Made by a program: the position numbers and the translations under genes. From NCBI RefSeq assembly GCF_016653115.1, contig NZ_NHRX01000010.1, positions 1 through 64,000 on the forward strand: DNA of 64,000 bases, written 5' to 3'. The notes beneath the pieces are model-generated. The model saw only the letters and a program-made list of their open reading frames with translations, was not told where the DNA came from and did not search any database. Of this stretch, positions 3,333-61,366 are shown in pieces (positions within the stretch are counted from its first letter, which is position 1; each line of letters begins with the position of its first letter). The stretch is from Rhodocyclus purpureus (GTDB lineage Bacteria; Pseudomonadota; Gammaproteobacteria; Burkholderiales; Rhodocyclaceae).

Positions 3333-3366
3333 AAAGTTCAGGATCCCTCTTTTCGCAAACAGCGAC

Positions 3367-10154: not shown

Positions 10155-10178
10155 GGGATTCCTTTCTCGGTTTTGGCC

Positions 10179-11537
10179 TTACTTGATGCCCAGACGGTGC
10201 ATGAGGTCATACAGGGTCGGGCGGCTGATGCCGAGGATCTCGGCGGTGCGGAGCAGGTTGCCGTCGGTGCGACCGAGGGCGGTGACGATGGCCTTGCGTT
10301 CGGCGTCTTCGCGGATCCGGCGCAGGTCGATGAAGCCTCGATCGTTCTCTGCCACGCTGGCGATGTTCAGGTCGTCGCGGGAGATCTGCGTGCTTTCGGC
10401 CATGATGACCGCGCGTTTGATGCAGTTCTCGAGTTCACGGACGTTGCCGGGCCAGCTGTGCGACTCGATCGCGCGGATCGCCTCTTCGGTGATCGTCATC
10501 CCCGTCCTGTTCTGTTCGACACAGAAGCGGCGGACGAAGGCGTGGGCGAGCAGGGAGGGGTCGCCCTCACGGTCGCGCAGCGGCGGGATGTTGATCTCGA
10601 TCTCGGCGAGCCGATAGAAGAGGTCCTCGCGGAACTGGCCGGCCTTGATCAGGGCGGGCAGTTCCTGATGGGTGGCGCAGACGATGCGCACGTCGACGGG
10701 GATTTCGTGCCTGCCGCCGATGTGCTCGACGGTCCGCTCCTGCAGGAAGCGCAGCAGCTTGGCCTGCAGCGAATGCGGCAGGTCGCCGATCTCGTCGAGC
10801 AGCAGCGTGCCGCCGTTGGCGCTTTCGATCTTCCCCGGCGTCGTCTTGGCGGCGCCGGTGAAGGCGCCTTTTTCGTAGCCGAAGAGCTCGCTTTCGAGCA
10901 GGTTGTCGGGAATCGCAGCGCAGTTGATGGCGACAAAACGACCGTTCTTGCGCGGCGACGCCTCGTGCAGGCCGCGCGCGAGCACCTCCTTGCCGGTGCC
11001 GCTTTCGCCGAGCAGGAGGACGGTCGCGTTGCTCTGGGCGATCTTCTCGATCGTCCGGCACAGGCGCAGCATCTGCGGCGAGCGGGTCAGCAGTCCGGAC
11101 AGCGCGGCCGGGTGCTGGCTGGCACGCAGGCGCCGGTTTTCCTCCTGCAGGTCGTGCAGGCGGAACGCGCGCTCGATGGTCAGCAGCAAGAGCTCGGGTT
11201 CGAAGGGCTTGGCGAAGAAATCGTAGGCACCCAGTTCGATCGCGCGCAGCGCGTTGGTCCGATCGTTCTGTCCGGTAAGGACGATCACCTTGGTGTCCGG
11301 CGCGATCGACAGGAGCTGTTCGAGCAGGCGGAAGCCCTCGGACGCCGAATCGGGGTCAGGCGGGAGCCCCAGGTCCATGGTGACGACCGCGGGGTTGTGG
11401 CGGTGGATCTGCGCGAGCGCGCTTTCACGGTCGCCGGCGGTCAAGGCTTCGAAGCGGTCTAACGACCAGCGCATCTGCTTTTGCAGCGCCGGGTCATCCT
11501 CGACGATCAGCAGCGGACGAAGCTTCTCCGAGTTCAT
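10179..11537 (-). CDS. prsR: PEP-CTERM-box sigma-54 response regulator PrsR
   Basis: 452 residues. The receiver domain (1-125) has phospho-acceptor Asp55 in VVTMDLGLPP. The AAA+ sigma-54 activator domain has Walker A GESGTGKEVLA, GAFTGA for contacting sigma-54, and Walker B LLLDEIGDLP. The Fis-type helix-turn-helix is at the C-terminus (LGISRPTLYDLMHRLGIK). This is the regulator that activates RpoN-dependent promoters of PEP-CTERM substrate genes (TIGR02915). The start overlaps the prsK stop (ATGA), so kinase and regulator are coupled. Confidence 0.95.
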   Translation of the reverse strand: MNSEKLRPLLIVEDDPALQKQMRWSLDRFEALTAGDRESALAQIHRHNPAVVTMDLGLPPDPDSASEGFRLLEQLLSIAPDTKVIVLTGQNDRTNALRAIELGAYDFFAKPFEPELLLLTIERAFRLHDLQEENRRLRASQHPAALSGLLTRSPQMLRLCRTIEKIAQSNATVLLLGESGTGKEVLARGLHEASPRKNGRFVAINCAAIPDNLLESELFGYEKGAFTGAAKTTPGKIESANGGTLLLDEIGDLPHSLQAKLLRFLQERTVEHIGGRHEIPVDVRIVCATHQELPALIKAGQFREDLFYRLAEIEINIPPLRDREGDPSLLAHAFVRRFCVEQNRTGMTITEEAIRAIESHSWPGNVRELENCIKRAVIMAESTQISRDDLNIASVAENDRGFIDLRRIREDAERKAIVTALGRTDGNLLRTAEILGISRPTLYDLMHRLGIK

Positions 11538-13648
11538 GCAGCCTCCCTGGCAGCCGGCGCGGCTTCGCTGTGTAGCTCGTGGAGCGGCAGCATCAGGGTG
11601 ATGCGGGTGCCGCGATCGACTTCGCTGTCGACCAGAATTTCTCCTCCCAGCTCACGGACGTATTGCGCACTCTCGTAGGCGCCGATTCCCATCCCCGTGT
11701 TCTTCGTGCTCTGGAAAGGCTTGAAAAGTCTCTCACGAATAAAATCATTTGTCATGCCTTTTCCGCTGTCGCCGACTTCCAGCGCGGCGTGCTCGCCGCG
11801 CCTTGCCAGTGCTATCCAGACACTGCCCTCGGATGGCGTGGCATCGAGCGCGTTCTGCACCAGATGGCCGATGACGCGCTCCAGGCGATCGGCGTGGCCG
11901 ATGGCCGACAGCCGGTCGTGGACGGTCGTCGCCACCACCCGGCCCTGCTTCATCTTTGCCGAGCGGATGTGCTCGATGATCTCGGGCAGGAAGACGCCGC
12001 AGGCTCTTCCCGATGGCGTCGCCCCTTCGCGCAACTGCGCCATGAGTTGCCGCATGCGATCGACCGAGTTTTCCACGGTCATCAGCATGTCTTCCTGAAA
12101 CTCGGGATTGCCGCGGTGGCGCTCGGCATTCTTCAGCATCAGCGACAGCTGGGTCATGATGTTCTTGAGATCGTGCACGACGAAGGCCGACATCTTGTTG
12201 AAGGCGTCGAATTTCCTGGCCTCGAGCAGCGCCTCGGTGGCCTGCATCTTGGTCAGGAAGCCCGCTGCCTGGCAGCCTGCGGTGCGCAAGAGGTCGTTGA
12301 CTTCCCAATTGACGTCGATCGCCGTCCGCGAACTGGCGAGGATCACGAAGCCGGCCAGTTCCTTGCCGACCATCAGCGGAACGACCAGCCAGGCGTTGCT
12401 CATCTGCGACAGCCATTCCGGGACCTCGAAATCGCGGTAACGGCTGCGGTGCGAGCGATACTCTTCGAGATTGACAACCCAGCCGCTGTCCAGCAGGAAG
12501 CGGACGAGGCTGCCGTCGGCGCTTTCCTGCGCAGTGTTTTCCGGCATGTTCCAGCGGGCGGTCTGCGAGTAGTTCTCGTTGTTGAGGTCGCGCAACCACA
12601 ATACGCCGGCGGGGCTTTCGACCATGTTGGCCAGACCGCGGATGACGTGCTCGCCCATCGCCTGTGGAGAATCCTGTGCGGACAGAGTCTGTGTGAAGCG
12701 CAGCCACTCTTCACGATAATCGTAGCGATAGGTGAACAGGTGCTTGCCGATGATGACGCGCAGTTTGGCGCGCATCGAACCCGAAACGGCGAGCATGCCC
12801 AGGACCAGGATCGCGGCGCAGACGAGCGCCAACTGCAGGGCGCGCCCCCAGGAGCCACCGAAGTAGCGGACGTAATAGCCGACCCCGGCCATGAACAGCA
12901 GATAGAGGCCGGCGATGAGCAGGGTTGCCGAATGGAAAACCGCCTTCCGCGAGAGGCGGATCCTCGACGTCCAGTCGCGACTGCGCAGCGCGGCGACGGC
13001 AAGCAGCGGGACGCTCAGGGCATGGACCACGCCGCGAACGATCAGCGCGTCATCGTCGATCCGGCCGAACATCAGGGCATCGGCAAAGAGGTAGACATCG
13101 AAGGCGAACTGCGCGCCGAGACCGAGACAGAGCGGCTTGATGTGCCAGCGGGAATCCTCCCTCACCGTGCGCAACAGCTGTTCGATCAGCAGCAGCGCCA
13201 GCAGCGGCATCGCCAGGCGCTGAAACAGCGACGCGCGCCAGCCGAGTTCGGTGGCAAGGAGTCCCTGGGCGGTCGAGAATTGCAGGGCTACGCCGCCGAC
13301 GACCAGCAGTGTGCAGGCAACGGGTGCCCACAGCGCTTGCCGTGCCAGGAGCGCGCGCAGCTTGCCTTGCGGCACCAGCAGCAGGAGCAAGAAGGCGTAC
13401 CAGGCGGATTGCCGCAGCAGGTCGAGCAGCGCTGCCGCCGGCGCGAACAGCGGATCGAGCGCGGCCATGGCCATCGAGGTGAGCCCGCCCCAGAGTGCCG
13501 AGAGGACGACGGCGATCAGCAGCGCGACGGGACGGACTCCGCGCCGCCAGGCGCGGCCGAGGAAGAGCAGGTAGGCTGCGAGCAGTGCATAGGCCGCCGC
13601 GGCCAGCGCGTGGCTGGCGACTACCAGTGTTGCGGATTCGGAGAGCAT
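11534..13648 (-). CDS. prsK: PEP-CTERM system histidine kinase PrsK
   Basis: 704 residues. The N-terminal half is a series of hydrophobic membrane helices (about 10-290). A GAF-like sensor follows, then the dimerisation/phospho-acceptor region with His in FVVHDLKNIMTQLSLMLKNA, and a HATPase domain with NALDA, GDSGKGM and TGMGIGAYES. It matches the PEP-CTERM kinase family (TIGR02916) and pairs with PrsR. The signal sensed is unknown. It is the first gene of the prsK-prsR-prsT run, 51 bases after the sugar transferase. Confidence 0.94.
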   Translation of the reverse strand: MLSESATLVVASHALAAAAYALLAAYLLFLGRAWRRGVRPVALLIAVVLSALWGGLTSMAMAALDPLFAPAAALLDLLRQSAWYAFLLLLLVPQGKLRALLARQALWAPVACTLLVVGGVALQFSTAQGLLATELGWRASLFQRLAMPLLALLLIEQLLRTVREDSRWHIKPLCLGLGAQFAFDVYLFADALMFGRIDDDALIVRGVVHALSVPLLAVAALRSRDWTSRIRLSRKAVFHSATLLIAGLYLLFMAGVGYYVRYFGGSWGRALQLALVCAAILVLGMLAVSGSMRAKLRVIIGKHLFTYRYDYREEWLRFTQTLSAQDSPQAMGEHVIRGLANMVESPAGVLWLRDLNNENYSQTARWNMPENTAQESADGSLVRFLLDSGWVVNLEEYRSHRSRYRDFEVPEWLSQMSNAWLVVPLMVGKELAGFVILASSRTAIDVNWEVNDLLRTAGCQAAGFLTKMQATEALLEARKFDAFNKMSAFVVHDLKNIMTQLSLMLKNAERHRGNPEFQEDMLMTVENSVDRMRQLMAQLREGATPSGRACGVFLPEIIEHIRSAKMKQGRVVATTVHDRLSAIGHADRLERVIGHLVQNALDATPSEGSVWIALARRGEHAALEVGDSGKGMTNDFIRERLFKPFQSTKNTGMGIGAYESAQYVRELGGEILVDSEVDRGTRITLMLPLHELHSEAAPAAREAA

Positions 13649-13699
13649 GGTCCGGAAGGATGTGTTTTGGGCGAGGGCCTGCGATGATCGCGGTGACGC

Positions 13700-14773
13700 T
13701 TACTGGGCACCCTTGCCGGTGAGCACGACACCGATCGTCGCCACGAGGATCATCAGGTCGAGATACAGAGAATGGTTCTTGACGTAGAAGAGGTCGTACT
13801 GGAGCTTTTCCGCCGACTCCTCGACGCTCCCGCCGTAGTGGTGGCGAACCTGCGCCCAACCGGTGACGCCGGGCTTGACGCTGTGGCGGACCGCGTAGAA
13901 CGGAATTTCCCTGGTCAGCTGGTCGACGAAGAACGGACGCTCCGGACGCGGGCCGACCATGCTCATCTCGCCCTTGAGCACGCTGTAGAGTTGTGGCAGC
14001 TCGTCGATGCGCAGCTTGCGAATGATCCTGCCCACCCGGGTGACGCGCTCGTCGTGCGCTTTCGCCCAGACGGCCTGGCCTCCCTTCTCGGCGTCGCGAC
14101 GCATGCTGCGGAACTTGATGACGTCGAAGAGTCGTCCGTTGCGCCCGACCCGTTGCTGCCGGTAGAGGATCGGGAAACCGTCCTCGACGACGATGGCCAG
14201 CGCGGTAAGGAGCATGACCGGCCAGGCAAGGGCGAGCAGGATCGAGGCGCAAACGATGTCCGACAGCCGCTTGAGGGTGGAACGCAGGCGGCCCTGCCGG
14301 AAGCCGTCGCCGAAGATCAGCCACCCCGCGTAGAGCGACTCGAGTCGAATCTGGCCGAGATTCGCCTCGAAGTGGCTGGCCATGTCGAGCACGCGGATGC
14401 CCTGGAGTTTGCAGTCGAGCAGTTCGCGCAAGGGCATCGCGCCGCCGCGTCGTTCGGAGACCGCGACGATGATCTCGTCCACCTGCAGCGCCTTCGCCGT
14501 GTCGACGACCGACTGGTGGCGAGGGACGATCAGTTCGTGCGGGACCGCGACCTCGCTCTCGTTGGGGCTGAAGCAGAACCCGGCGATCTGCGTCGAAGGA
14601 CCGCAGCTCTCGAGCACCTGCTTGACGCGCAGCGCCTTGCTTCCCGTGCCGAAGACGAGTACGCGGCGCGTCTCCGTCGCCATCATCGTACGGTAGTCCG
14701 GGACCAGGCGGCCGAACACCTGGTTCAGCATCTCGACGAACCAGGACAGTCCATTGCTTGGTGCTTCCATCAT
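13700..14773 (-). CDS. Exosortase-associated undecaprenyl-phosphate sugar transferase (EpsB_2 type), short form
   Basis: 357 residues, matching the catalytic half of the TIGR03013 sugar transferases. It has a nucleotide-binding-like domain (RRVLVFGTGSKALRVKQVLE, about 33-155), one reentrant/membrane helix (IVCASILLALAWPVMLLTAL), and the phosphoglycosyltransferase motifs KFRSMRRDAEKG, DELPQLYSVLKGEMSMVG and KPGVTGWAQV. The family is usually about 450 residues with several N-terminal membrane helices. Here the first 30 residues are unrelated to those helices, so the membrane part is missing. The core could still work as a monotopic enzyme, loading the first sugar phosphate on the lipid carrier for exopolysaccharide. 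The start codon overlaps the stop of a small upstream frame. Confidence 0.85.
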   Translation of the reverse strand: MMEAPSNGLSWFVEMLNQVFGRLVPDYRTMMATETRRVLVFGTGSKALRVKQVLESCGPSTQIAGFCFSPNESEVAVPHELIVPRHQSVVDTAKALQVDEIIVAVSERRGGAMPLRELLDCKLQGIRVLDMASHFEANLGQIRLESLYAGWLIFGDGFRQGRLRSTLKRLSDIVCASILLALAWPVMLLTALAIVVEDGFPILYRQQRVGRNGRLFDVIKFRSMRRDAEKGGQAVWAKAHDERVTRVGRIIRKLRIDELPQLYSVLKGEMSMVGPRPERPFFVDQLTREIPFYAVRHSVKPGVTGWAQVRHHYGGSVEESAEKLQYDLFYVKNHSLYLDLMILVATIGVVLTGKGAQ

Positions 14774-44902: not shown

Positions 44903-45676
44903 CTACTCGCCGCTGAACTGTGGCGGGCGCTTTTCCTTGAACGCCCGGATGCCCTCGGCGTAGTCGCGGCTCTTGTAGACCTTGTGCCGCAGTTCCTGGA
45001 TGCGTTCGAAGATTCCCGGTTGTAGCGGCGCCGAATCGCCGAGCATGCGCAACTGCTCCTTGATTGCCGCCACTGCCAGCGGTGCCTTGGTGGCGATCCC
45101 TTCGGCCAGCGCCAGCGTGAACTGGAGCAGTTCCGCCTGCGGCACCAGGTGGTTGAGGATCATCCACTCCTCGGCCTCCCTCGCCTTGATCGGCCGCGCC
45201 GTGAACAGCATTTCCTTGGCCACGTGCAGGGGCAGGCGGCGCATGAAGTTGAGCGTGCCGGAGATGTTGTAGGGAACGCCGAGATTCACCGGGGTCAGCG
45301 CGAACGAGCTGGTCTCGTCACCGATGATCAGGTCGCAGGAGAGGACGAGTTCGCTGGCGCCGCCCCATACCGAGCCGCTGACCATCGCGATCACAGGGGC
45401 CGGGAAATGCTGCACGGCACGCACCAACTGCTCGAGCGAGTCCGAGTAGTGCAGCGGGTCCTCGCCGAGCGGCAGTTCGTCGATGTCGTGGCCGGCCGAC
45501 CATACCCTGGCGCCGACGCCGGCGGTCAGGATCAAGGCGCGCACGCGCGCGCCGGCCAGCTCGTCCATCTTCTCGATCAGCTCCGCGACCAGCGCGCGCG
45601 ACAGCGCGTTGCGCTTTTCCTGGTGCTTCAGCGTGAGGATGCCGATGTTGCCCTGCCGTTCGCTGCTTACGTACAT
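44903..45676 (-). CDS. scpB: Methylmalonyl-CoA decarboxylase (crotonase family)
   Basis: 257 residues of the enoyl-CoA hydratase fold. Several segments match E. coli ScpB closely: VWSAGHDIDELPLG, GSVWGGASELVLSCDLIIG, FALTPVNLGVPYN and KEQLRMLGDS. It should convert (R)-methylmalonyl-CoA to propionyl-CoA. It lies apart from mutase genes in this window; partners would be elsewhere. Confidence 0.85.
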   Translation of the reverse strand: MYVSSERQGNIGILTLKHQEKRNALSRALVAELIEKMDELAGARVRALILTAGVGARVWSAGHDIDELPLGEDPLHYSDSLEQLVRAVQHFPAPVIAMVSGSVWGGASELVLSCDLIIGDETSSFALTPVNLGVPYNISGTLNFMRRLPLHVAKEMLFTARPIKAREAEEWMILNHLVPQAELLQFTLALAEGIATKAPLAVAAIKEQLRMLGDSAPLQPGIFERIQELRHKVYKSRDYAEGIRAFKEKRPPQFSGE

Positions 45677-46261: not shown

Positions 46262-47188
46262 TCACCGTCGCTGCCGCCATTCCTCGAGTGCGCTCAGCGC
46301 GCCCTCCAGCGTCGGCAGGATGCGCAGCCCCGCGAGCGGGCGCAGGCGCGTGCAGCCGCCGCCTCCGATCCACAGTTCGACCTCCGGCGGCAGCAGCTCG
46401 CGCAGCTTGCCGACCAGCGGCTGCAGTTGCCGCGTCGGAAACGCCGCCGAGAAGGAGAGCGCGACGATGTCGGCACGGTGCGCGATCGCCGCCTGGCGGA
46501 GGTCGAACAGCGGCAGCTGCGTTCCCAGCGGGATGCAGCTCGCGCCTTCGAGGGCGAGCAGCGCCTGTACCATCAGCAATCCCAGCGTGTGCAGTTCGTC
46601 GGGGACAGTGGTGAGCAGCACGCGCGGTGGCTGGCCACTCGGCGCCAGTCCTGCGAGCGCCTGGCGCAGCAGCGTGGTGATCTGCTCGGTGTACAGGTGC
46701 TCCTCGAACACTTCGATCTCGCCGCGCATCCAGGCTTCGCCGACGGCGATGTTGAGTGGCCCGACCGTATCGATGACGAAGCGCTGCAGGCCCTCGCGCA
46801 GCAGCGCCTGGCTGAGCGTCTGTTGCAGCGCGGGCAGGTCGTGCTCGCGCAACTCCCCGAGCACGCGCTCGATCAGCGGTGCCGCCTTCTGTGGCGCAAT
46901 CTCCTCGCCGTCCGTTGTCGCCGCGACCGGCATCGACTGGGCGCCGAGCAGCGCCAGTTCCTCCTCGCCGGCGCCGACCAGCTTGCCCGGGCGGTAACCG
47001 AGGTCGATCAGTCGCTTGATCAGGCGCAGCCGATCGACCTGCTCGGCAGGATACAGGCGCTCGCCGTGCTCATCGCGGTCCGGCGTCGGGAATCCGTAGC
47101 GACGCTCCCAGGCGCGCAGGGTGTCCTTGCCGAGGCCGGTATCGCGCTCGACCGAGCCAATGTTCAGCGGCGGACGTGGAGTGTTCAT
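46262..47188 (-). CDS. litR: MerR-family regulator with cobalamin-binding photosensor domain (CarH/LitR-like)
   Basis: 308 residues. Residues 8-75 are a MerR winged helix (LNIGSVERDTGLGKDTLRAW ... RLIKRLIDLGYRPGKLVG). From about 100 comes the four-helix bundle with the W-x9-EH motif (Trp153, Glu163, His164) that caps adenosylcobalamin. Next is a B12-binding Rossmann domain with ExHxxG (Glu198, His200, Gly203), His200 being the expected lower cobalt ligand. The residue after Trp153 is Met, where Thermus CarH has His132. It probably represses itself and the divergent operon in the dark and lets go when light destroys the cobalamin. The ATG at 47188 is chosen because AGGA lies upstream and earlier codons overlap the operator. 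Confidence 0.88.
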   Translation of the reverse strand: MNTPRPPLNIGSVERDTGLGKDTLRAWERRYGFPTPDRDEHGERLYPAEQVDRLRLIKRLIDLGYRPGKLVGAGEEELALLGAQSMPVAATTDGEEIAPQKAAPLIERVLGELREHDLPALQQTLSQALLREGLQRFVIDTVGPLNIAVGEAWMRGEIEVFEEHLYTEQITTLLRQALAGLAPSGQPPRVLLTTVPDELHTLGLLMVQALLALEGASCIPLGTQLPLFDLRQAAIAHRADIVALSFSAAFPTRQLQPLVGKLRELLPPEVELWIGGGGCTRLRPLAGLRILPTLEGALSALEEWRQRR

Positions 47189-47189
47189 T

Positions 47190-47202
47190 TTGTCCTGTAC
47201 AA
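47190..47202. promoter_or_regulatory. Operator site 1 (overlaps the litR ribosome-binding site)
   Basis: TTGTCCTGTACAA, an imperfect inverted repeat one base upstream of the litR start. It covers the AGGA on the minus strand that serves as ribosome-binding site. The TGTACA half matches published LitR/CarH-type sites as I remember them. Confidence 0.6.
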
Positions 47203-47245
47203 AGCGAGGTGATGACAATGGTTGACGAAATGCCTTTGCGTTGAT

Positions 47246-47273
47246 AGTTTAGCAAAAAAGACGATTCTGTCCA
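47246..47273 (-). promoter_or_regulatory. Putative litR promoter
   Basis: On the minus strand, TGGACA (47268-47273) and TAAACT (47246-47251) are 16 bp apart, 58 bases before the litR start. The -35 lies inside operator site 2, which fits autoregulation. Confidence 0.5.
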
Positions 47274-47278
47274 GGACA
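47268..47278. promoter_or_regulatory. Operator site 2
   Basis: TGTCC-A-GGACA, a perfect inverted repeat with one central base. It overlaps the predicted -35 of litR. Confidence 0.65.
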
Positions 47279-47381
47279 AGATGCTCTTTCGCTGTGTTGC
47301 GGGGTGTGGCACCACTTCTTCCGGCCCTTCACGTGTCCAGGCAAGGCGGCCACCCTTGCCGGAGACTTACGGCGAGGCTAT

Positions 47382-47396
47382 TTTGTCCAGGACAAA
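47382..47396. promoter_or_regulatory. Operator site 3
   Basis: TTTGTCC-A-GGACAAA, a perfect 7-bp inverted repeat with one central base and the best copy of the motif. It is 150 bases upstream of folE2. Confidence 0.7.
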
Positions 47397-47438
47397 TCGA
47401 AGAATTTCTCGTTTGCATAGAACTCTGCATCTTGCTGC

Positions 47439-47464
47439 TTGTCCAAGGTGTCAAGCTTGGACAA
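47439..47464. promoter_or_regulatory. Operator site 4 (spaced inverted repeat)
   Basis: TTGTCCAAG and CTTGGACAA, exact reverse complements, are separated by 8 bases (GTGTCAAG). They have the same core half-sites as sites 1-3 but a wider spacer. The site is 82 bases upstream of folE2, where it could control that promoter. Confidence 0.65.
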
Positions 47465-47545
47465 ATTTGGCGTCTGCAGCCTTGCCTTGATTGCCACGCT
47501 GCCTGCCATTTTCGACCTCTGTATTCATTTTCCGGAGACTGCCTC

Positions 47546-48346
47546 ATGAATGCCCCCGACACTTTCTTCCTTCCCGACGTCCAGGCCAGTCTCGACACGC
47601 GCCGGCTCGCGATCCACAAGGTCGGCGTCAAGGGCCTGCGCTATCCGCTGGCGCTGGCCGATGCCAAGGGTGGCATCCACCATACCGTCGCCCAGGTGTC
47701 GATGTCGGTCGGTCTGCCACCCGACGTCAAGGGAACGCACATGTCACGGTTCGTCGAAATCCTCGAACAGCCGCGCGCGCCGCTCGACGCCAACGGCTTC
47801 CTGGCCATGCTCGATCAGACGCTGGAGCGCCTCGATGCGGAGAGCGGCTGCATCGACTTTTCCTTCCCGTACTTCATCGCCAAGGCGGCTCCGGTTTCCG
47901 GTGTCGAGAGCCTGCTCGACTACGACGTTCGCCTGATCGCCGAGAAGCGCGAAGGCGAGCGTGCCGAACTGTCGATCGAGGTCGTCGCGCCGGTGACCAG
48001 CCTGTGCCCTTGCTCGAAGAAGATCAGCGAGTACGGCGCGCATAACCAGCGCTCGCACATCACCATCCGCGCGCTCTTGCGCGGGCCGCTGACGCCCGAG
48101 GCGCTGGTGCGCCTGGCCGAGGAAGAGGCCTCGTGCGAGGTGTTCGGCCTCTTGAAGCGTCCCGACGAGAAGTGGGTGACCGAACGTGCCTACGACAACC
48201 CGAAGTTCGTCGAGGATCTGGTGCGCGACATCGCGCTGCGCCTGATGCGCGAGCCTTCGATCGCCGAATGGACGGTGAAGTCCGAGAACTTCGAGTCGAT
48301 CCACAACCACTCGGCCTACGCCGAGATCAGCGGCATCAACGCCTGA
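47546..48346 (+). CDS. folE2: GTP cyclohydrolase FolE2
   Basis: 266 residues starting at MNAPDTFFLPDVQASLDTR. Typical FolE2 features are VGVKGLRYPL, KGTHMSRFVEIL, VTSLCPCSKKISEYGAHNQR (the Cys is the expected metal ligand) and ESIHNHSAYA. It makes 7,8-dihydroneopterin triphosphate for folate and pterins, and is less zinc-dependent than FolE. Being first in a presumed LitR operon, it may feed pterin/folate cofactors needed in light, for example for a photolyase encoded elsewhere. It is 46 bases before the FAD oxidoreductase. Confidence 0.94.
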   Translation: MNAPDTFFLPDVQASLDTRRLAIHKVGVKGLRYPLALADAKGGIHHTVAQVSMSVGLPPDVKGTHMSRFVEILEQPRAPLDANGFLAMLDQTLERLDAESGCIDFSFPYFIAKAAPVSGVESLLDYDVRLIAEKREGERAELSIEVVAPVTSLCPCSKKISEYGAHNQRSHITIRALLRGPLTPEALVRLAEEEASCEVFGLLKRPDEKWVTERAYDNPKFVEDLVRDIALRLMREPSIAEWTVKSENFESIHNHSAYAEISGINA

Positions 48347-48392
48347 GCAGGGGGCTCGGCGTCGAATAACATTCATCAACAGGGAGAATAAA

Positions 48393-49730
48393 ATGCGGGG
48401 AATGCAAAGGATTGCGGTCGTCGGCTCGGGAATCTCGGGGCTGTCGGCGGCGTGGCTGCTCGGGCAGAAGTACGAGGTGACGCTGTTCGAGTCCGCCGAT
48501 TACCTGGGCGGGCACACCAACACCGTGGACGTCACGCTCGACGGGGTGACGCACCCGGTCGATACGGGTTTCCTCGTGTACAACACGAAGACCTACCCGA
48601 ACCTGACCGCCATGTTCGCGCAGCTCGGCGTCGCCAGCGTCGAGACCGAGATGTCCTTTGCCGTCAGCCTCGAAGAGCCGCGCCTCGAATGGTCGGGTTC
48701 CAGCCTGGCGACGGTGTTCGGGCAGAAGCGCAACCTGCTGCGCCCCGACTTCCTGCGCATGCTCACCGACATCCTGCGCTTCAACCGCGAATCGGTCGAT
48801 TGCCTCGAACTGAACCCGCACGACGAGCGCACGCTGCGCGAGTTCCTCGCCGAGAAGGGCTACTCGAAGAGCTTCCAGGAGTGGTACCTGCTGCCGATGG
48901 CGGCGGCGATCTGGTCGTGCCCGGCCGGCCAGATGCTCGACTACCCGCTGATCACCTTCCTGCGTTTCTGCCGCAACCACGGCCTCCTGCAGATCAACGA
49001 CCGGCCGATGTGGCGGACCGTTCGCGGTGGCGCGCGCGAGTACGTGCGCCGGTTGGCGCTGTTGATCGACGAGGTGCGCCTGTCGTCGCCGGTGAGCGCG
49101 CTGCGTCGCGTCGCCGGTGGCGTCGAGATCGTCTCGCCGCGCGGCGTCGAGCGCTTCGACCAGGTCGTGCTCGCCTGTCACAGCGACCAGGCGCTGAAGA
49201 TCCTCGGCGAGCACGCCTCCGCCGACGAGCGCGCGCTGCTCGGCGCGGTCCGCTACCAGCAGAATCGCGCCGTGCTGCACTGCGACGAGACCCTGCTGCC
49301 ACGCGACCGCTCGCTGTGGGCCGCGTGGAACTACCTCTCCGCGAAGGGCGAACTCGACCAGCGCCCGGTGGCCGTTTCCTACCTGCTCAACCGCCTGCAG
49401 CCGGTGCCGTTCAAGCAGCCGGTGCTGGTCACCCTGAACCCGCCGCGCGAGCCCGCTGCCGACAAGGTGTTCGCCGAGTTCGAGTACGCGCACCCGGTGT
49501 TCGACGCAGCGGCCGTCGCCGCCCAGGAGAAGCTGGCCGCAGTCTCCGGCAGCGACCGGGTCTGGCTGTGCGGCGCGTGGACCGGCAACGGCTTCCACGA
49601 GGACGGGCTCAAGTCCGGCCTCCTCGTCGCCAACGCGCTCGGCTGCCGCGCGCCCTGGCAGGGCGCCGAGCGCGTCGAGGAACTGCCGCCGCTGCTCTAT
49701 CCCGGCTACAGCGAGGCGGCGCCGGCATGA
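48393..49730 (+). CDS. FAD-dependent amine-oxidase-like oxidoreductase
   Basis: 445 residues with a strong ribosome-binding site (AGGGAG). The dinucleotide fold is at the N-terminus (IAVVGSGISGLSAAWLLGQ) and the C-terminal FAD motif is VWLCGAWTGNGFHEDGLKSG. It belongs to the NAD(P)-binding/amine-oxidase-type proteins that are always seen with DUF1365 and a CFA-like methyltransferase; in Rhodobacter the set belongs to the singlet-oxygen regulon and unusual fatty acid synthesis. It probably oxidises a lipid acyl chain (inference). The stop overlaps the next gene (ATGA). Confidence 0.88.
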   Translation: MRGMQRIAVVGSGISGLSAAWLLGQKYEVTLFESADYLGGHTNTVDVTLDGVTHPVDTGFLVYNTKTYPNLTAMFAQLGVASVETEMSFAVSLEEPRLEWSGSSLATVFGQKRNLLRPDFLRMLTDILRFNRESVDCLELNPHDERTLREFLAEKGYSKSFQEWYLLPMAAAIWSCPAGQMLDYPLITFLRFCRNHGLLQINDRPMWRTVRGGAREYVRRLALLIDEVRLSSPVSALRRVAGGVEIVSPRGVERFDQVVLACHSDQALKILGEHASADERALLGAVRYQQNRAVLHCDETLLPRDRSLWAAWNYLSAKGELDQRPVAVSYLLNRLQPVPFKQPVLVTLNPPREPAADKVFAEFEYAHPVFDAAAVAAQEKLAAVSGSDRVWLCGAWTGNGFHEDGLKSGLLVANALGCRAPWQGAERVEELPPLLYPGYSEAAPA

Positions 49731-50533
49731 ACGCCCCGGTCGCCCGCATCGGCTTCGGCGAAGTGATGCACCACCGGCTGCGGCCGGCGCAACATCGCTT
49801 CGTCTATCCGGCCTACTTTTTCCTGCTGCCGCTTTCAAGGCTGCAGGAGGCGGGCGGCGGACTGTTCTCGATCAACGCCTTCAACCTTTTTTCCTTCCGC
49901 TTTGCCGACTATGGTGCGCGCGACGGCTCGCATCCGCTGCCGTGGATCCGGCGCCAGCTGGCCGACGCCGGCATCGACGCCGACGGCGAGGTGTGGCTGC
50001 ACACCTTCCCGCGCGTGCTCGGCATCAACTTCAACCCGGTCAGCTTCTGGTTCTGCCACGACGCCGCCGGCGAACTGGTCGCGGTGCTCGCCGAAGTCAG
50101 CAACACCTTCGGCGAACGCCACAACTATCTGCTCACCAAGCCAGACGGCGCGCCGATCGCTAACGGCGAGCGCCTCGGCTGCGCCAAGGTCTTTCACGTC
50201 TCGCCGTTCAACCAAGTCGTCGGCGGCTATCGTTTCCGTTTCCGGCGGCGCCTGCCCGGCGGCGCCGTCGCGTCCGGGGCGACGCCCGAGCCGGAAGAGC
50301 TGCGTCTGGCGCGCATCGACTACGCCGACGACGAAGGCGACCTGCTGCTCACTTCGATCTCCGGACGCGTCGAGCCACTCACCAGCAGGACCCTGCGCAA
50401 GGCTTTCCTGCGTTACCCGTGGCAACCGCTCGGCGTCCTCGCGCGCATCCACTGGCAGGCGCTGGCCTTGTGGCGCAAGCACGTTCCCTTCTTCCACAAA
50501 CCCGCTCCCCCGCTTGAGGAGACGACGCGATGA
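49727..50533 (+). CDS. DUF1365 family protein
   Basis: 268 residues beginning MNAPVARIGFGEVMHHRLRP. Typical DUF1365 stretches are HRFVYPAYFFLLPL, NPVSFWFCHD and FGERHNYLL, and it has the conserved KVFHVSPFNQV. The function is unknown; it always travels with the FAD oxidoreductase and methyltransferase and is presumably part of the same lipid modification. ATGA overlaps on both sides. Confidence 0.88.
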   Translation: MNAPVARIGFGEVMHHRLRPAQHRFVYPAYFFLLPLSRLQEAGGGLFSINAFNLFSFRFADYGARDGSHPLPWIRRQLADAGIDADGEVWLHTFPRVLGINFNPVSFWFCHDAAGELVAVLAEVSNTFGERHNYLLTKPDGAPIANGERLGCAKVFHVSPFNQVVGGYRFRFRRRLPGGAVASGATPEPEELRLARIDYADDEGDLLLTSISGRVEPLTSRTLRKAFLRYPWQPLGVLARIHWQALALWRKHVPFFHKPAPPLEETTR

Positions 50534-51816
50534 ATTCCGCCAACAGCTCGCTCGCCCTGGATTCAGTCGGCCCCGTTCCACTGTCCTCTGCGCCACTGTC
50601 CGAAGCAAGTTCCGCCGAACTGCCGCGCAGCGCGGCCTTGATCCTGCGCCTGCTTGCCGGTATCGAGCACGGCCGCCTCGAACTGCAACTGCCCGACGGC
50701 AGCGTGCACCGGGCCGGCAGCGACGAGACGCAGGAGGCACGGCATGCAGTGCTGGCGATCGGTGATTGGGAGGTATTCGACGAGGTGCTCGCGCGCGGCG
50801 ACGTCGCCTTTGCCGAGGCCTACATCGACGGGCGCTGGCAGACGCCCGACCTGGCGGCGCTGCTCACCCTGCTCGCCGCCAATCGCACGCTGATCGAGCG
50901 CGCCGTCTATGGCAACTGGCTGAGCCTCGCCTGGGACCGCCTGCGCCACCTGCTGCGCGCCAATACCCGGCGCGGATCGAAGCGCAACATCATGGCACAC
51001 TACGACCTCGGCAACGAGTTCTACCGGCAATGGCTCGACCCGACGATGAGCTATTCGAGCGCGCTCTACACCAGCCCCGGTCAGCCGCTGGCCGACGCGC
51101 AACTGGCCAAGTACCGGCGCATCCTGCGCCGCCTCGACGTCCAGCCGGGGCAGCGGATCCTCGAGATCGGCTGTGGCTGGGGTGGCTTTGCCGAGGTCGC
51201 GGCCGGCGAATTCGGCGCGCAGGTGCATGGGCTGACGCTGTCGCCGGCGCAACTCGAGTTTGCGCGCGCGCGCCTCGATCGCGCCGGACTCGGCGGACAG
51301 GTCGAGCTCGAACTGCGTGACTACCGCGACCTCGCCGGTCCGGGTGTCGACCACAGCTACGACCACATCGTCTCGATCGAGATGTTCGAGGCGGTCGGCG
51401 AACGCTGGTGGCCCGCCTACTTCAAGGGGCTGCGCCGCCTGCTCAAGCCGCAGGGACGCGCGCTGGTGCAGACGATCACCATCCGCGACGATCTGTTCGC
51501 GCGCTACCGGCGCGGCACCGACTTCATCCAGCAGCACGTCTTCCCGGGCGGCATGCTGCCGTCGCCATCGGTGTTCCGGCAGCGCGCCGCCGCCGCCGCC
51601 GGACTCGTCGTCAGCGACGCGCTCGCCTTCGGCGCCGACTACGCGCGCACGCTCGCCGAATGGGCCGACAGCTTCGAGCGCGCGCAGCCGGCGATCCGGG
51701 AGCAGGGCTTCGACGAGCGCTTCGCGCGCCTGTGGCGCTTCTACCTCGCCTACTGCGAGGCCGGTTTCGCCAGCGGCTCGACCGATGTCTACCAGTTCGA
51801 GCTGAGCGCGGCGTAA
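50530..51816 (+). CDS. Cyclopropane-fatty-acid-synthase-like methyltransferase
   Basis: 428 residues. The SAM-binding motif is ILEIGCGWGGFAEVAAGEFG. The CFA-type lead is NIMAHYDLGNEFYRQWLDPTMSY (split: HYDLGNEFY, then MSYSS), with SIEMFEAVGERWW and DFIQQHVFPGGMLPS. It probably transfers a methyl or methylene to the double bond of a phospholipid acyl chain. It is co-translated with the DUF1365 gene. Confidence 0.9.
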   Translation: MNSANSSLALDSVGPVPLSSAPLSEASSAELPRSAALILRLLAGIEHGRLELQLPDGSVHRAGSDETQEARHAVLAIGDWEVFDEVLARGDVAFAEAYIDGRWQTPDLAALLTLLAANRTLIERAVYGNWLSLAWDRLRHLLRANTRRGSKRNIMAHYDLGNEFYRQWLDPTMSYSSALYTSPGQPLADAQLAKYRRILRRLDVQPGQRILEIGCGWGGFAEVAAGEFGAQVHGLTLSPAQLEFARARLDRAGLGGQVELELRDYRDLAGPGVDHSYDHIVSIEMFEAVGERWWPAYFKGLRRLLKPQGRALVQTITIRDDLFARYRRGTDFIQQHVFPGGMLPSPSVFRQRAAAAAGLVVSDALAFGADYARTLAEWADSFERAQPAIREQGFDERFARLWRFYLAYCEAGFASGSTDVYQFELSAA

Positions 51817-51832
51817 GCAGCGCCCGGCCGCC

Positions 51833-53185
51833 ATGAGCGCGCTCGCCTCTCCATCGCCGACCATGCCTGCGTCTCCGGCTCCTCCACTCGCAGCGAACGC
51901 GGCGGCTGACTGGCGGCGGCGCCTGGCCTACGGCGCGCTCGGCCTGCCGCTGGCGATGGCCGCGCTGCCGGTCTACGTGCATGTGCCGCGCCTCTGGGCC
52001 GAGGTCAGCGGCATCAGCCTCGCGCTGCTCGGCGGCCTCCTGCTCGCCTCGCGCCTGCTCGACGCCTTCGTCGATCCGCTGCTCGGGGCCTGGAGCGACC
52101 GTGCCGCCGGCCGTCGCCGGCTGATCGTCCTCGCGCTGCCTTTCCTCGCTGCCGGCTTCTGCGCGCTGCTGATGCCTCCCGCCGACGGGCCTGCCGTTCC
52201 CTGGCTGCTCGCCGCGCTGCTCGCCACCTACTTCGGTTTTTCACTGGCCAGCATCGCCTACCAGGCCTGGGGCGCCGAGATCGGCGCCAGCGCCGGTGAG
52301 CGCACCCGGCTCGTCGCCAGCCGCGAAGCTTTCGGCCTCGTCGGCGTCATGCTCGCCGCCGCCTTGCCGGGTCTGCTCGCCACTCCCGGTAGTCCGCCGG
52401 GAGCGGGGCTGGCGATGCTGGCCTGGCTCTTCGTTCCGCTGCTTTTCCTGCTCGCTGCGATCTCGCTGCTCGGCGCCGCACCGGTGCGCGCCGCGGTGCC
52501 GGCGGCCGCGCCGATGGGCGAAGCGCTGGGCGCCGGACTGCTGCAGCCGCTTTCCGATTCCCGCTTTCGCCGCCTGCTCGCCGTCTATGTCGCCAACGGC
52601 ATCGCGGCTTCCCTGCCGGCGACGCTGGTCCTCTTCTTCGTCGCCGACGTGCTGCACGCCGAGCAGTGGAGCGGCGCTTTCCTGGCGCTCTACTTCGTCA
52701 GCGGGGTCGTCTTCCTGCCGCTGTGGGTCGCGCTGGCGCGGCGCATCGGTCGCGTCGTCACCTGGGTGCTGGCGATGGCCGTGGCCTGCCTGGCCTTTAC
52801 CGGTGCCGGGCTCCTCGGCAGCGGCGATGTCTGGCCGTTCGCGCTGGTCTGCCTGCTCTCCGGCGCTGCGCTTGGTGCCGACCTGTGCCTGCCGGCTGCC
52901 TTGCTCGCCGAGATCAGCCAGGGCAAGGCGCAGGGCACCGCGGCCGACGCCGGCGGCTATTTCGGCTGGTGGAACCTGGTCGGCAAGCTCAACCTCGCGC
53001 TAGCCGCGGGGCTGGCGCTGCCGCTACTCGAATTCACCGGCTACCGGCCGGGCGGCGCCGCGGGCGAGGTTTCATCGGTCGCCGGCCTGATCCTGATCTA
53101 CTGTGGCCTGCCCATCGTTTTCAAAACCGTCGCCGCCGTGCTTGCCTGGCGCTGGCGACATCTGCTGGAGGAGGAAGAATCATGA
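51833..53185 (+). CDS. MFS transporter of the GPH (sugar:cation symporter-like) type
   Basis: 450 residues with about twelve membrane helices. Motifs resemble MFS_2 (FVDPLLGAWSDRAAGRRRLIV, YQAWGAEIGASAGERTRLVASRE). It starts 16 bases after the methyltransferase and overlaps the DUF3833 gene by ATGA. Members linked to this operon type may move a lipid or a small molecule rather than a sugar; the substrate is unknown. Confidence 0.85.
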   Translation: MSALASPSPTMPASPAPPLAANAAADWRRRLAYGALGLPLAMAALPVYVHVPRLWAEVSGISLALLGGLLLASRLLDAFVDPLLGAWSDRAAGRRRLIVLALPFLAAGFCALLMPPADGPAVPWLLAALLATYFGFSLASIAYQAWGAEIGASAGERTRLVASREAFGLVGVMLAAALPGLLATPGSPPGAGLAMLAWLFVPLLFLLAAISLLGAAPVRAAVPAAAPMGEALGAGLLQPLSDSRFRRLLAVYVANGIAASLPATLVLFFVADVLHAEQWSGAFLALYFVSGVVFLPLWVALARRIGRVVTWVLAMAVACLAFTGAGLLGSGDVWPFALVCLLSGAALGADLCLPAALLAEISQGKAQGTAADAGGYFGWWNLVGKLNLALAAGLALPLLEFTGYRPGGAAGEVSSVAGLILIYCGLPIVFKTVAAVLAWRWRHLLEEEES

Positions 53186-53727
53186 AATCCATTCGTGGCC
53201 TGCTGGCTTTCTGCCTGTTGCTGCCGGCGCTGTCCGGTTGCGCCGGGAGCAGCGTCTCACAGTACCGCGCCGAGCAGCCGAAGCTCGACCTGGCGACCTA
53301 TTTCGACGGCGTCATCGACGGCTGGGGGATGTTCCAGGACCGCTCGGGCGAGGTGAAGAAGCGTTTCCACGTGGTCATCAACGCCACCTGGGAGAAGAAG
53401 GACGGCGTCGATGTCGGCACCCTCGACGAGCACTTCGACTGGTCCGACGGAACGACCTCGCGGCGCGTGTGGACGATCACGCGCCTGGGCGACGGTCGCT
53501 ACAGCGGTCGTGCCGACGACGTCGTCGGCGAGGCCGAGGGCGAGGCCGCCGGCAACGCGCTGCGCTGGCGTTACGTGCTGGCGCTGCCGGTCGATGGCAA
53601 GGTCTGGAACGTCGATTTCGACGACTGGATGTACCTGATGGACGACTCGGTGATGCTCAACCGCTCCGAGATGAAGAAGTTCGGCTTCCGTCTCGGCGAA
53701 GTGACGCTGAGCTTCAAGAAGCGCTGA
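53182..53727 (+). CDS. DUF3833 lipoprotein
   Basis: 181 residues with lipobox LPALSGCAGS. The body is rich in aromatic and acidic residues (YFDGVIDGWGMFQDRSG, HFDWSDGTTSRRVWTI, FDDWMYLMDDSVMLNRSEM) characteristic of DUF3833. It is likely anchored in the envelope, and its lipocalin-like look suggests lipid binding (inference). Confidence 0.87.
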   Translation: MKSIRGLLAFCLLLPALSGCAGSSVSQYRAEQPKLDLATYFDGVIDGWGMFQDRSGEVKKRFHVVINATWEKKDGVDVGTLDEHFDWSDGTTSRRVWTITRLGDGRYSGRADDVVGEAEGEAAGNALRWRYVLALPVDGKVWNVDFDDWMYLMDDSVMLNRSEMKKFGFRLGEVTLSFKKR

Positions 53728-53771
53728 TCCCCTCATTGTCCACTGCTGATCCTGCCAACGGAGGCCGCACC

Positions 53772-54569
53772 ATGAGCGCGCTCAACCCGACCATCGACGA
53801 CTGGCGCGGCCTGCGCGTCTGGCTGTTCGGCGCCTCGACCGGAATCGGCGCGGCGCTGGCGCGCGAGCTGGCCGCACGCGGGGCACGCCTCGCGCTGTCG
53901 GCACGCAGTGCCGACAAGCTGGCCGCACTCGCCGGCGAACTGGGCAGCAAGCTCGCTGCCGGGCCGGCGCCCTTGCTGCTGCCCTGCGACGCGAGCAAGG
54001 ACGACAGTCTCGCCGCGGCCTGGGGGAGCCTGCTCGACGCCTGGGGGGGCGTCGACGTCGCCATCTACCTCGCCGGCGACTACACGCCGATGCGCGCCGA
54101 CGCGATCGACATGGCGGTGGCGCGGCGGCTGATCGACGTGAACCTGGTCGGCGCGATCGCCTTCACGGCGCTGCTCGCGCCGCAACTGAAGGCGCAGCGC
54201 GCCGGACAGATCGCGCTGACGGCGAGCGTTGCCGGCTACTGCGGCCTGCCCAAGTCGCTGGTCTATGGCGCGAGCAAGGCCGCGCTGATCAACTTCTGCG
54301 AGACGCTCTACCTCGACCTGTCGCCCTACGGCGTCGGCGTGCGCGTGATCAACCCCGGCTTCGTCGCCACCCCGCTCACGGCGCAGAACGACTTCACGAT
54401 GCCGGCGCTGCAGACGCCCGAGCAGGCGGCGAGCGCGATCGTCGCCGGATTCGCCTCGGGTGCGTTCGAGATCGATTTTCCCAGGCGCTTCACGCGCGTG
54501 ATGAAGACCCTGGCGCTGCTGCCCTACCGCCTGTTCTTCCCGCTCGTCCGCCGCTTCACCGGCCTCTGA
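53772..54569 (+). CDS. Short-chain dehydrogenase/reductase
   Basis: 265 residues from ATG 53772 with GGAGG upstream. NAD(P)-binding motif FGASTGIGAALARELAARG, then YLAGDYTPM, the Ser in TASVAGYCG, and the catalytic YGASK (Tyr-x-x-x-Lys). It reduces or oxidises a carbonyl/alcohol. In this operon it probably acts on the modified acyl chain or a derived aldehyde (inference). Confidence 0.9.
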   Translation: MSALNPTIDDWRGLRVWLFGASTGIGAALARELAARGARLALSARSADKLAALAGELGSKLAAGPAPLLLPCDASKDDSLAAAWGSLLDAWGGVDVAIYLAGDYTPMRADAIDMAVARRLIDVNLVGAIAFTALLAPQLKAQRAGQIALTASVAGYCGLPKSLVYGASKAALINFCETLYLDLSPYGVGVRVINPGFVATPLTAQNDFTMPALQTPEQAASAIVAGFASGAFEIDFPRRFTRVMKTLALLPYRLFFPLVRRFTGL

Positions 54570-54583
54570 AGGAGTCCTCGTCG

Positions 54584-55057
54584 ATGTCGCATCCGGAAAT
54601 AGCGCACGCCGAGCAGATCGCCGCCAACCGGCAGGCGGTCGAGCGCCTGGTGCCCTTCTTCGAGGATTTCTCGCCGGACAGCCTGGCGCGTTTCGCCGAG
54701 CATTACAGCGAGGACGCCTGGTTCAAGGACCCGTTCAACGAGGTGCGCGGGATCGACGCGATAGAGCGCATCTTCGCGCACATGTTCCTCCAGGTCGACG
54801 CGCCGCGCTTCGTCGTCGTCGAGCGGATCGTCGACGCGGGTGGCGCCGTCCTGGTCTGGGATTTCCACTTCCGCCTGCGCGACTGGAAGCGCAACGAGAC
54901 GCAGACGATACGCGGTGTCTCGCACCTGAAGTTCGCTGCCGATGGCAGGGTGTGCTGGCACCGTGATTACTGGGATGCGGCCGAGGAACTGCTGGCCAAG
55001 CTGCCCGTGATCGGCTTCATCGTGCGCGCGCTGCAGCGCCGGCTGTCGGCGCAGTGA
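54584..55057 (+). CDS. NTF2-like (SnoaL-fold) protein
   Basis: 157 residues, 14 bases after the SDR. The SnoaL-like fold shows in FSPDSLARFAEHYSEDAWFKDPFNEVRG, VVERIVDAGGAVLVWDFHF and VCWHRDYWDAAEEL. It is a small cytoplasmic protein, perhaps binding a hydrophobic substrate or acting as an isomerase. It closes the operon; the next gene is convergent. Confidence 0.85.
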   Translation: MSHPEIAHAEQIAANRQAVERLVPFFEDFSPDSLARFAEHYSEDAWFKDPFNEVRGIDAIERIFAHMFLQVDAPRFVVVERIVDAGGAVLVWDFHFRLRDWKRNETQTIRGVSHLKFAADGRVCWHRDYWDAAEELLAKLPVIGFIVRALQRRLSAQ

Positions 55058-60854: not shown

Positions 60855-61230
60855 CGGGGAAGTCGTCCAGACAGCCGCCGGGCGCGTCAAGCGCCGGGAG
60901 GAAAGTCCGGGCTCCACAGAGCAGGATGCCGGCTAACGGCCGGGCGCTATAAGCCGCAAGGCGAAGGCGACGGAAAGTGCAACAGAGAGCAGACCGCCGA
61001 TGGCCCGCCGCGCAAGCGTCGGGATCAGGCAAGGGTGAAACGGCGAGGTAAGAGCTCACCGCGGACGCGGCAACGCGGACGGCACGGTAAACCCCATCCG
61101 GAGCAAGGCCGAATAGGGAAGCATTGGCGCTGCTCGCGTCGCTTCCGGGTAGGCTGCTTGAGCGTGCCGGTAACGGTACGCCTAGAGGAATGGCTGTCCA
61201 CGACAGAACCCGGCTTATCGGGCGGCTTCC
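60855..61230 (+). ncRNA. rnpB: RNase P RNA (class A)
   Basis: It contains the conserved 5' part GAAGTCGTCCAGACAGCCGC, the GGAGGAAAGTCCGGGCTCC core, AGGGTGAAACGGCGAGGTAAG, ACGGTAAACCCCATC, GAGGAATGGCTG and the 3' GAACCCGGCTTATCGG. These are standard landmarks of bacterial RNase P RNA, which trims tRNA 5' ends. End points are set from the E. coli pattern and may be off by several bases. Confidence 0.95.
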
Positions 61231-61366
61231 CCCCCCTTTTCCGTCCCGGGCGACCAGCCCCTCCGGCGGGCCGCACCCGTCCTGCTTGCCGGGATTCCAT
61301 TTGTCATGGATCCCGTATGCGTCTGGCAGGCTCCCCCAGTCCTTCCCGTTCATTACAAAGCACTTT

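Follow-up and report, generated by a model that had tools for sequence, protein, structure and literature searches.

A predicted CarH-like, cobalamin-dependent light regulon around a folE2 and lipid-modification operon in Rhodocyclus purpureus

Introduction

Which signal would a cobalamin (vitamin B12)-binding transcriptional regulator pass to genes of pterin synthesis and membrane-lipid modification? The question is raised by a locus in the first 64,000 nucleotides of contig NZ_NHRX01000010.1 of Rhodocyclus purpureus (assembly GCF_016653115.1), a stretch referred to as a whole as the window. The locus analysed (positions 46262-55057) consists of a gene encoding a CarH/LitR-like regulator on the minus strand and eight plus-strand genes diverging from it, among them folE2, a flavin adenine dinucleotide (FAD) oxidoreductase, a DUF1365 protein and a cyclopropane fatty acid (CFA)-type methyltransferase. 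Judged from its sequence, the window carries the gene output of the Rhodobacter singlet-oxygen regulon under a predicted B12-type regulator.

We consider it probable that a CarH-like, cobalamin-dependent light regulon acting against photo-oxidative stress has this locus as its hub. The sequence itself provides the genes, a set of predicted operators, a site shared with a photolyase locus, and invariant B12-associated residues in the regulator. A pairing of this regulator with this operon in Betaproteobacteria was not found among the papers listed by an open-licence library, and a prior mention is possible.

Gene content and layout of the locus

The genes of the locus are as follows, the eight of the run being assigned by protein family match.

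46262..47188, minus strand: litR/carH-like regulator, 308 amino acids, with MerR_1 helix-turn-helix (HTH), B12-binding_2 and B12-binding domains (Pfam, alignment and predicted model)
47546..48346, plus strand: folE2
48393..49730, plus strand: FAD oxidoreductase (UfaD-like; parallel to RSP_1091 in published papers)
49727..50533, plus strand: DUF1365 protein (UfaO-like)
50530..51816, plus strand: CFA/CMAS-type S-adenosylmethionine methyltransferase (UfaM-like)
51833..53185, plus strand: GPH-type major facilitator superfamily (MFS) transporter
53182..53727, plus strand: DUF3833 lipoprotein-like protein
53772..54569, plus strand: short-chain dehydrogenase/reductase (SDR)
54584..55057, plus strand: SnoaL_2/NTF2-like protein, the final gene of the run

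All nine genes were confirmed with the families and strands given to them in an earlier note, which had been made from the sequence alone. The tight junctions described there also exist, although they number five (three 4-bp overlaps and gaps of 16 and 14 bp) instead of four; at the two looser junctions, folE2/FAD and DUF3833/SDR, the genes are 46 and 44 bp apart. The genome contains two FolE2 genes, the window copy and one on contig C9, and this second copy rules out that the window gene encodes the sole GTP cyclohydrolase of the genome. FolE1 (PF01227) was not found in any of the three Rhodocyclus genomes (G000, G056, and G101).

A predicted operator shared with a photolyase locus

We newly define here a predicted operator, the 13-bp palindrome TTGTCCNGGACAA. 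It occurs in three copies (with 0, 1, and 1 mismatch) in the 357 bp between the regulator and folE2, all falling within about 200 bp.

47190..47202, no strand assigned: operator A (TTGTCCTGTACAA, 1 mismatch), abutting the regulator's ATG (sequence scan)
47267..47279, no strand assigned: operator B (CTGTCCAGGACAA, 1 mismatch; sequence scan)
47383..47395, no strand assigned: operator C (TTGTCCAGGACAA, exact), about 150 bp before folE2, with no -35/-10 pair recognised (sequence scan)
47439..47464, no strand assigned: split half-sites TTGTCCAAG/CTTGGACAA, a possible fourth operator (read from the sequence)

The ATG was taken as the start of the regulator; an alternative TTG at 47218 would place the start upstream of operator A. 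No further palindrome with fewer than two mismatches was found in the 64-kb window. Across all 3.6 Mb of the genome, sites with at most one mismatch are limited to the three in the window, two on contig C46 (1113, exact; 1293, one mismatch), and one on contig C48 (83144, one mismatch), and the only exact palindromes are operator C and C46:1113. The latter sits between a DUF3429 gene (L011 461-916, minus strand) and an FAD oxidoreductase gene (from 1202) that we label “renalase-like” (Amino_oxidase), which is followed by a photolyase/cryptochrome-family gene (2246-3766). Because the only other exact site lies at this photolyase locus, the photolyase probably belongs to the same regulon as the lipid operon. 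The earlier note had remarked on the lack of a photolyase, which is true of the operon itself, but the gene on C46 carries the same operator.

The one-mismatch site at C46:1293 lies inside the FAD-oxidoreductase gene and was taken as chance. For the site at C48:83144 (L163), no open reading frame (ORF) of at least 110 amino acids was recognised that spans the site or begins no more than 400 bp from it. Besides the gene on C46, the genome has two photolyase-family matches, on C52 and C38. The one on C38 (L003, about 132,342-132,821) has two in-frame TGA codons, and this gene may be broken.

Conservation of the operator and of the gene order

The operator was examined in a sample of 150 genomes of the family, 61 of which have a regulator match at E ≤ 1e-20. 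Of these 61, 41 contain the exact site, compared with 15 of the 89 regulator-lacking genomes (Fisher one-sided p = 3.6e-10; the test counts related genomes as independent, and the p-value is indicative), whereas the reversed pattern, used as a control, has no such association (17/61 vs. 24/89, p = 0.52). The surroundings of the regulator were extracted from each of the 60 further genomes that bear it, and one locus with 32 bp upstream (L107) was dropped from the count of upstream sites. Of the resulting 60 regions (the window included), 57 have a site with at most one mismatch in the 400 bp preceding the regulator, and 53 have at least two sites with at most two mismatches there, compared with means of 0.06 and 0.04 regions, respectively, after Markov resampling. 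The conserved sites are 13-bp palindromes containing TnnACA, with A or T as the centre base in 140 of 142 sites. Operator A abuts the regulator's ATG in the window, and its counterpart in most relatives is found just ahead of the codon at which the alignment begins. Between the first two sites, 33 of the 53 regions have a distance of 62-64 bp and 15 have one of 73-75 bp, i.e., about six or seven helical turns, and the remaining five spacings are 58, 77 (window), 86, 154, and 298 bp. A spacing of six or seven turns suggests cooperative binding or looping.

Gene order was counted in the 52 relatives' loci that have at least 9 kb of operon-side sequence, omitting the 8 shorter of the 60. In 47 of them the FAD gene is found on the side that diverges from the regulator, and FAD-DUF1365-CFA follow each other in this order, diverging from the regulator, in 45. 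All eight genes keep the order of the window in 15 loci and the last seven in 21, and 4 loci have none of them. A search of relatives for the same gene order, as proposed in the earlier note, thus returned it, and the counts of 45/52 and 15/52 imply that the order is not due to chance. The view that folE2 in first position is a less usual arrangement is contradicted: 19 of the 52 loci start with folE2 and 28 with the FAD gene. The distance between the CFA and MFS genes is at least 450 bp in all 40 relatives measured, compared with 16 bp in the window (51817-51832). In R. tenuis, a chalcone-isomerase-like gene (PF16036; L014 4649-5272, minus strand) lies between the two.

Could this neighbourhood have been conserved without regulation, the palindromes serving another regulator and the co-occurrence reflecting shared ancestry? 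Operator binding is a prediction, and the treatment of related genomes as independent leaves room for such an explanation. However, in most loci the palindromes fall where the regulator gene has its own -35 box and its start codon, the sites are kept at unlinked targets (see below), and the reversed pattern is without association; we therefore regard shared ancestry without regulation as very improbable.

Unlinked targets

Among the matches listed, regions around exact distal sites were examined in regulator-bearing genomes (20 regions) and in regulator-lacking genomes (16 regions). Such sites precede folE2, renalase-like, photolyase, or DUF3429 genes in 8 of the 20 and in 1 of the 16, the lone regulator-lacking case (G053) being a folE2 run near a contig end in a genome that is 85% complete. 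Genomes G147 and G016 have folE2-FAD-DUF1365 runs about 163 kb and 1.8 Mb from litR, respectively, with the exact site kept upstream; in G016 an ORF with a glutathione-peroxidase domain lies between the site and folE2, and litR still has an FAD-gene match beside it. A renalase-like FAD oxidoreductase follows or flanks the exact site in G147, G064, and G140, with a PF04244 photolyase-related gene beyond it in G147. Photolyase and DUF3429 genes both occur at exact sites in G064 and G140, and DUF3429 in G078.

Two further groups of genes stand at exact operators. In two different genera, these sites precede PAS-domain methyl-accepting chemotaxis proteins (L131 in G081 and L146 in G134), which, going by the site, are possible light-regulated taxis receptors. 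In two genomes of a single genus, an exact operator adjoins the gene of a PAS-LytTR regulator or coincides with its start (L132 in G085 and L133 in G031).

Promoters at the predicted operators

Operator B overlaps a predicted promoter of the regulator gene.

47246..47273, minus strand: predicted litR promoter, with -35 TGGACA inside operator B, a 16-nt spacer, and -10 TAAACT preceded by TG (sequence reading)

On the regulator strand, the consensus of operator B is TTGTCCT(A/G)GACAAA, in which T(A/G)GACA can act as a -35 box. With the operator over the -35 box, an occupied site would block RNA polymerase. The best match to a -10 box lies 17 nt from the -35 box in 38 of 51 loci and is mostly TAAGAT, this count at position 17 having no control of its own. 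A similar arrangement at the C46 locus (TGGACA-17-TAACAT) is directed at DUF3429, and TAnnnT stands exactly 17 nt off on the DUF3429 strand in all four DUF3429 loci (the own C46 locus, L139, L143, and L144), compared with 2 of the 27 remaining exact sites having any match at 16-18 nt on either strand. At L130 and L150, a -35/-10 pair 17 nt apart faces away from the renalase-like gene and from folE2. A comparison of 28 loci gave no clear promoter shared among them at operator C.

These promoter data bear on the possibility that the operon is under a σE-ChrR type singlet-oxygen response here too, with the CarH-like gene mainly regulating itself. No promoter was recognised at operator C, the gene content equals that described for the Rhodobacter RpoE regulon (PMC7074977, PMC5507510), and the blue-light response of Vibrio cholerae is reported to be mediated by both MerR and ChrR proteins (PMC5241685). 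However, the palindrome is also found before the photolyase locus and before folE2 runs that are distant from litR, and in nearly all loci (47/52) the FAD gene of the operon diverges from the regulator, which, with no search for ECF/ChrR genes made across the genome, makes σE-ChrR control of this operon quite improbable.

The regulator and its cobalamin

The regulator has Pfam domains PF13411, PF02607, and PF02310 above cut-off (the last at 2.4e-8). CarH proteins are defined by Wx9EH together with ExHx2Gx41SxV/Tx22-27GG, and B12-independent CarA is described as lacking the adenosyl (Ado)-capping motif Wx9EH (PMC8156234). The sensor motifs reported in the earlier note are indeed present: W153, E163, and H164 form Wx9EH, and E198, H200, G203, and S245 form ExHx2Gx41S (spacing counted in the window protein), followed by GG at 275-276. 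All of these residues are invariant in the 61 aligned regulators, as is Ser247, which stands at the V/T position, so that the SxV/T element is not matched. The aligned sequences begin at the tblastn match, so that their N-terminal ends may be incomplete; the additional matches to the regulator in G149, G068, G062, and G100 received no separate treatment. Since the protein scores 119.5 bits against the NCBIfam CarH equivalog NF052513, below the cut-off of 400, we refer to it as “CarH-like” rather than as a CarH equivalog. Its predicted model (pLDDT 89.7) resembles the B12-domain structures of Thermus thermophilus CarH (Z about 20.8, 31% identity, root-mean-square deviation (rmsd) 2.3-2.8) and photocobilin domains (Z 21). 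For folding of the regulator and of the DUF1365 protein, the alignments omit locus L025, whose genes are split between frames.

Two side observations concern regulator genes in relatives. Two regulator matches lie about 4 kb apart on one contig in G149 (L109, contig C178), and in G062 (L120) the regulator adjoins a phytochrome-GGDEF-EAL protein and a protein that weakly matches heme oxygenase, with the lipid operon not beside the regulator in the stretch examined.

The position of T. thermophilus CarH His132, the upper cobalt ligand of the light state, follows the Trp and is replaced in all 61 regulators (M24, L17, E9, V4, I2, A2, T2, and F1). Without an equivalent of this His, any release of DNA in light must do without it. 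The T. thermophilus H132A variant is reported to be mostly tetrameric in light (PMC10442372), and an earlier report of H132A CarH disassembly is cited in the same paper.

The adenosyltransferase families PF01923 and PF02572 were not found in any of the three Rhodocyclus genomes, while they are present in 131 and 99 of the 150 family genomes, respectively; apart from these three, every genome with the regulator (58 of 61) contains at least one of the two (cross-counted by hand). R. purpureus is described as requiring vitamin B12 and lacking the anaerobic pathway, and R. gracilis as having the anaerobic cobalamin pathway (PMC8954225). A cobalamin pathway in which no known adenosyltransferase family is found suggests an unrecognised, non-orthologous enzyme. 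Adenosyl-B12 in Rhodocyclus would thus appear to come from such an adenosyltransferase or, alternatively, from uptake of adenosylcobalamin.

The missing His and adenosyltransferases are both compatible with a regulator that controls the operon but senses cobalamin supply, another corrinoid, or a protein partner, much as class II LitR is described to act via a LOV (light-oxygen-voltage) partner (PMC9758184). Nevertheless, the Ado-capping motif is invariant, the C-terminal B12-binding domain (PF02310) lacking in class II LitR, which has B12-binding_2 only, is present in the window regulator, and photolyase-family genes are among the predicted targets. Of the alternatives considered this is the most probable, but we judge it unlikely.

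Proposed mechanism and points against it

Adenosyl-B12-dependent sensing of light remains the reading that we prefer, and it would work as follows. In the dark, the regulator with adenosylcobalamin would sit on the palindromes TTGTCCNGGACAA, of which one lies over its own -35 box, one abuts its start codon, one precedes folE2, and one precedes DUF3429 and the FAD-oxidoreductase/photolyase pair elsewhere in the genome. Light would break the Co-C bond and take the repressor off the DNA. Derepression would then provide pterins (through FolE2), methylated and probably furan fatty acids (through the UfaM/UfaD/UfaO-like trio), and photolyase. The input would be light itself, unlike in the Rhodobacter σE-ChrR system, while the output would match that regulon. 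Repression, the response to light and B12, and the lipid products are all what we infer. The earlier proposal of CarH/LitR-like, B12-dependent control of the lipid operon is upheld by the conserved divergence, the operators, the B12 residues, and the predicted CarH-like fold, while some of its details fail.

A number of observations, besides the replaced His132, the H132A behavior, and the missing adenosyltransferase families, weigh against this reading. The sites recognised, in scans for the palindrome, differ from the 11-bp direct repeats of CarH; CarH operators have been described as plastic (PMC9304148). The spacing of 77 bp between operators A and B in the window is off the 62-64/73-75 bp rule. 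Under a strict definition (five of six bases), -10 boxes downstream of operator B are no more frequent than in shuffled sequence (3 observed, shuffle mean 2.8), and neither operator C nor the distal sites at folE2 and renalase-like genes have a recognisable -35/-10 pair on the strand of the genes concerned. Among the matches listed, 12 of the 20 distal exact sites in regulator-bearing genomes lie in or before other genes, as expected by chance, and, of the genome's three photolyase-family genes, only one has a nearby site, since the 16 and 15 kb examined around those on C52 and C38 contain none with up to two mismatches. Finally, the case is a prediction from sequence.

A more specific scenario can be put forward tentatively, in that it may well be wrong in some part: a large betaproteobacterial clade of adenosyl-B12 photoreceptors captured the core of the singlet-oxygen/furan-fatty-acid regulon, switches without the bis-His ligand exchange known from T. 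thermophilus CarH, and represses via helically phased palindrome pairs rather than 11-bp direct repeats, with adenosyl-B12 reaching the Rhodocyclus members via an unrecognised adenosyltransferase or uptake.

Other features of the window and genome

The window has a GC content of 66.2%, close to the 66.1% published for R. purpureus (PMC8954225). Two adjacent photosynthetic reaction-centre genes (PF00124) are present on contig C5, and the host is therefore a phototroph. The DUF1365 protein (49727-50533) has a predicted beta-rich fold akin to fatty-acid-binding-like barrels, with invariant His residues. The nearest PDB folds of its AlphaFold model (pLDDT 85) are OlmO, nitrobindin, Rv2717c, OssO, and Ycf58, at Z 7.0-7.8 and rmsd 3.8-4.2, which is below the safe level of the tool (Z 8); Foldseek gave no match at E ≤ 0.001, and no solved sequence relative was found at E ≤ 1. 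This modelled likeness may be a lead on the UfaO cofactor but is no proof, and it is unused as evidence here.

Elsewhere in the window, positions 7380-14773 hold a row of ORFs for a TPR protein, a response-regulator-like and a kinase-like protein (these two named by eye), and an XrtA/PEP-CTERM-type sugar transferase. A methylmalonyl-CoA decarboxylase gene at 44903-45676 (over the NCBIfam cut-off) adjoins a gene for a GltP/DctA-like symporter (below cut-off), and a class A RNase P RNA is located at 60859-61233.

Comparison with known systems

In R. sphaeroides, the RpoE-ChrR regulon is described as including cfaS, phrA, RSP_1091, RSP_1090, RSP_1089 (GPH symporter), RSP_1088, RSP_1087 (SDR), and folE2 (RSP_1852) (PMC7074977, PMC5507510). 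UfaD (RSP1091), UfaO (RSP1090, a DUF1365 protein), and UfaM (RSP_2144) are reported to produce 9M5-FuFA, a furan fatty acid that gives protection from singlet oxygen (PMC7380195). The locus in R. purpureus, together with its C46 photolyase, corresponds to the same set by family or annotation (FAD, DUF1365, GPH, small hypothetical/lipoprotein, SDR, CFA-type, FolE2, and photolyase), and the UfaM/UfaD/UfaO set is complete at the family level, i.e., a CFA-type methyltransferase, an FAD/NAD-type desaturase, and a DUF1365 protein. The earlier note had assigned the FAD/DUF1365/CFA trio to Rhodobacter singlet-oxygen responses, which is correct for the regulon but not in the sense of one operon: the window has folE2, the methyltransferase, and the others in one run, whereas in Rhodobacter UfaD and UfaO are encoded in RSP1091-1087 and the methyltransferase RSP_2144 lies apart (PMC7380195, PMC7074977). 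Instead of the extracytoplasmic function (ECF) sigma factor and antisigma sensor that control the Rhodobacter genes, those in the window face a B12-type regulator with its own predicted operator.

The LitR/LOV light-inducible regulon of Pseudomonas putida is described as comprising phrB, ufaM, folE, and cryB, and in P. mendocina phrB and ufaM, reported to be up about 25- to 33-fold in light, share an operon with genes for an SDR and an FAD oxidoreductase (PMC9758184). PplR of P. putida and PmlR of P. mendocina thus resemble the system in the window, i.e., a LitR-family regulator with photolyase, ufaM-type, FAD oxidoreductase, and SDR genes among its described or, here, predicted targets. They differ, according to the same source, as class II LitR proteins that have no C-terminal B12-binding domain and are switched by a short LOV protein, whereas the window regulator has both B12 domains. 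Their sites are TGTACA-N12-TGTACA rather than TTGTCCNGGACAA, and Pseudomonas FolE is encoded within a folM-folE-folX operon, while the window enzyme is FolE2.

With CarH of T. thermophilus, Bacillus megaterium, and Myxococcus xanthus, the regulator shares the order of MerR HTH, four-helix B12-binding_2, and Rossmann B12-binding domains, the motifs Wx9EH and ExHx2Gx41S...GG, and an operator, here a predicted one, across the -35 box. The described targets of CarH are carotenoid genes, whereas the window regulator faces a lipid/folE2 operon, and the sites recognised before it are palindromes, those of CarH being described as tandem 11-bp direct repeats. The light-state His of T. thermophilus CarH is replaced by M, L, E, V, and others, and Ser stands for Val/Thr in the SxV/T element. 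The lack of this His in every regulator of the sample raises the question of how else a B12 photoreceptor lets go of DNA, and in Rhodocyclus, without the usual adenosyltransferase families, chromophore supply becomes a testable question.

A similar protective set (furan fatty acids, FolE/FolE2, photolyase, and SDR) thus comes under three unrelated controls, namely an ECF sigma/antisigma pair in Rhodobacter, a flavin LOV protein with LitR in Pseudomonas, and a predicted B12-type photoreceptor in the window host and many of its relatives. Three controls over one gene set make a clear and testable case of regulatory rewiring, for which the defined operator offers a direct handle in binding tests and regulon prediction.

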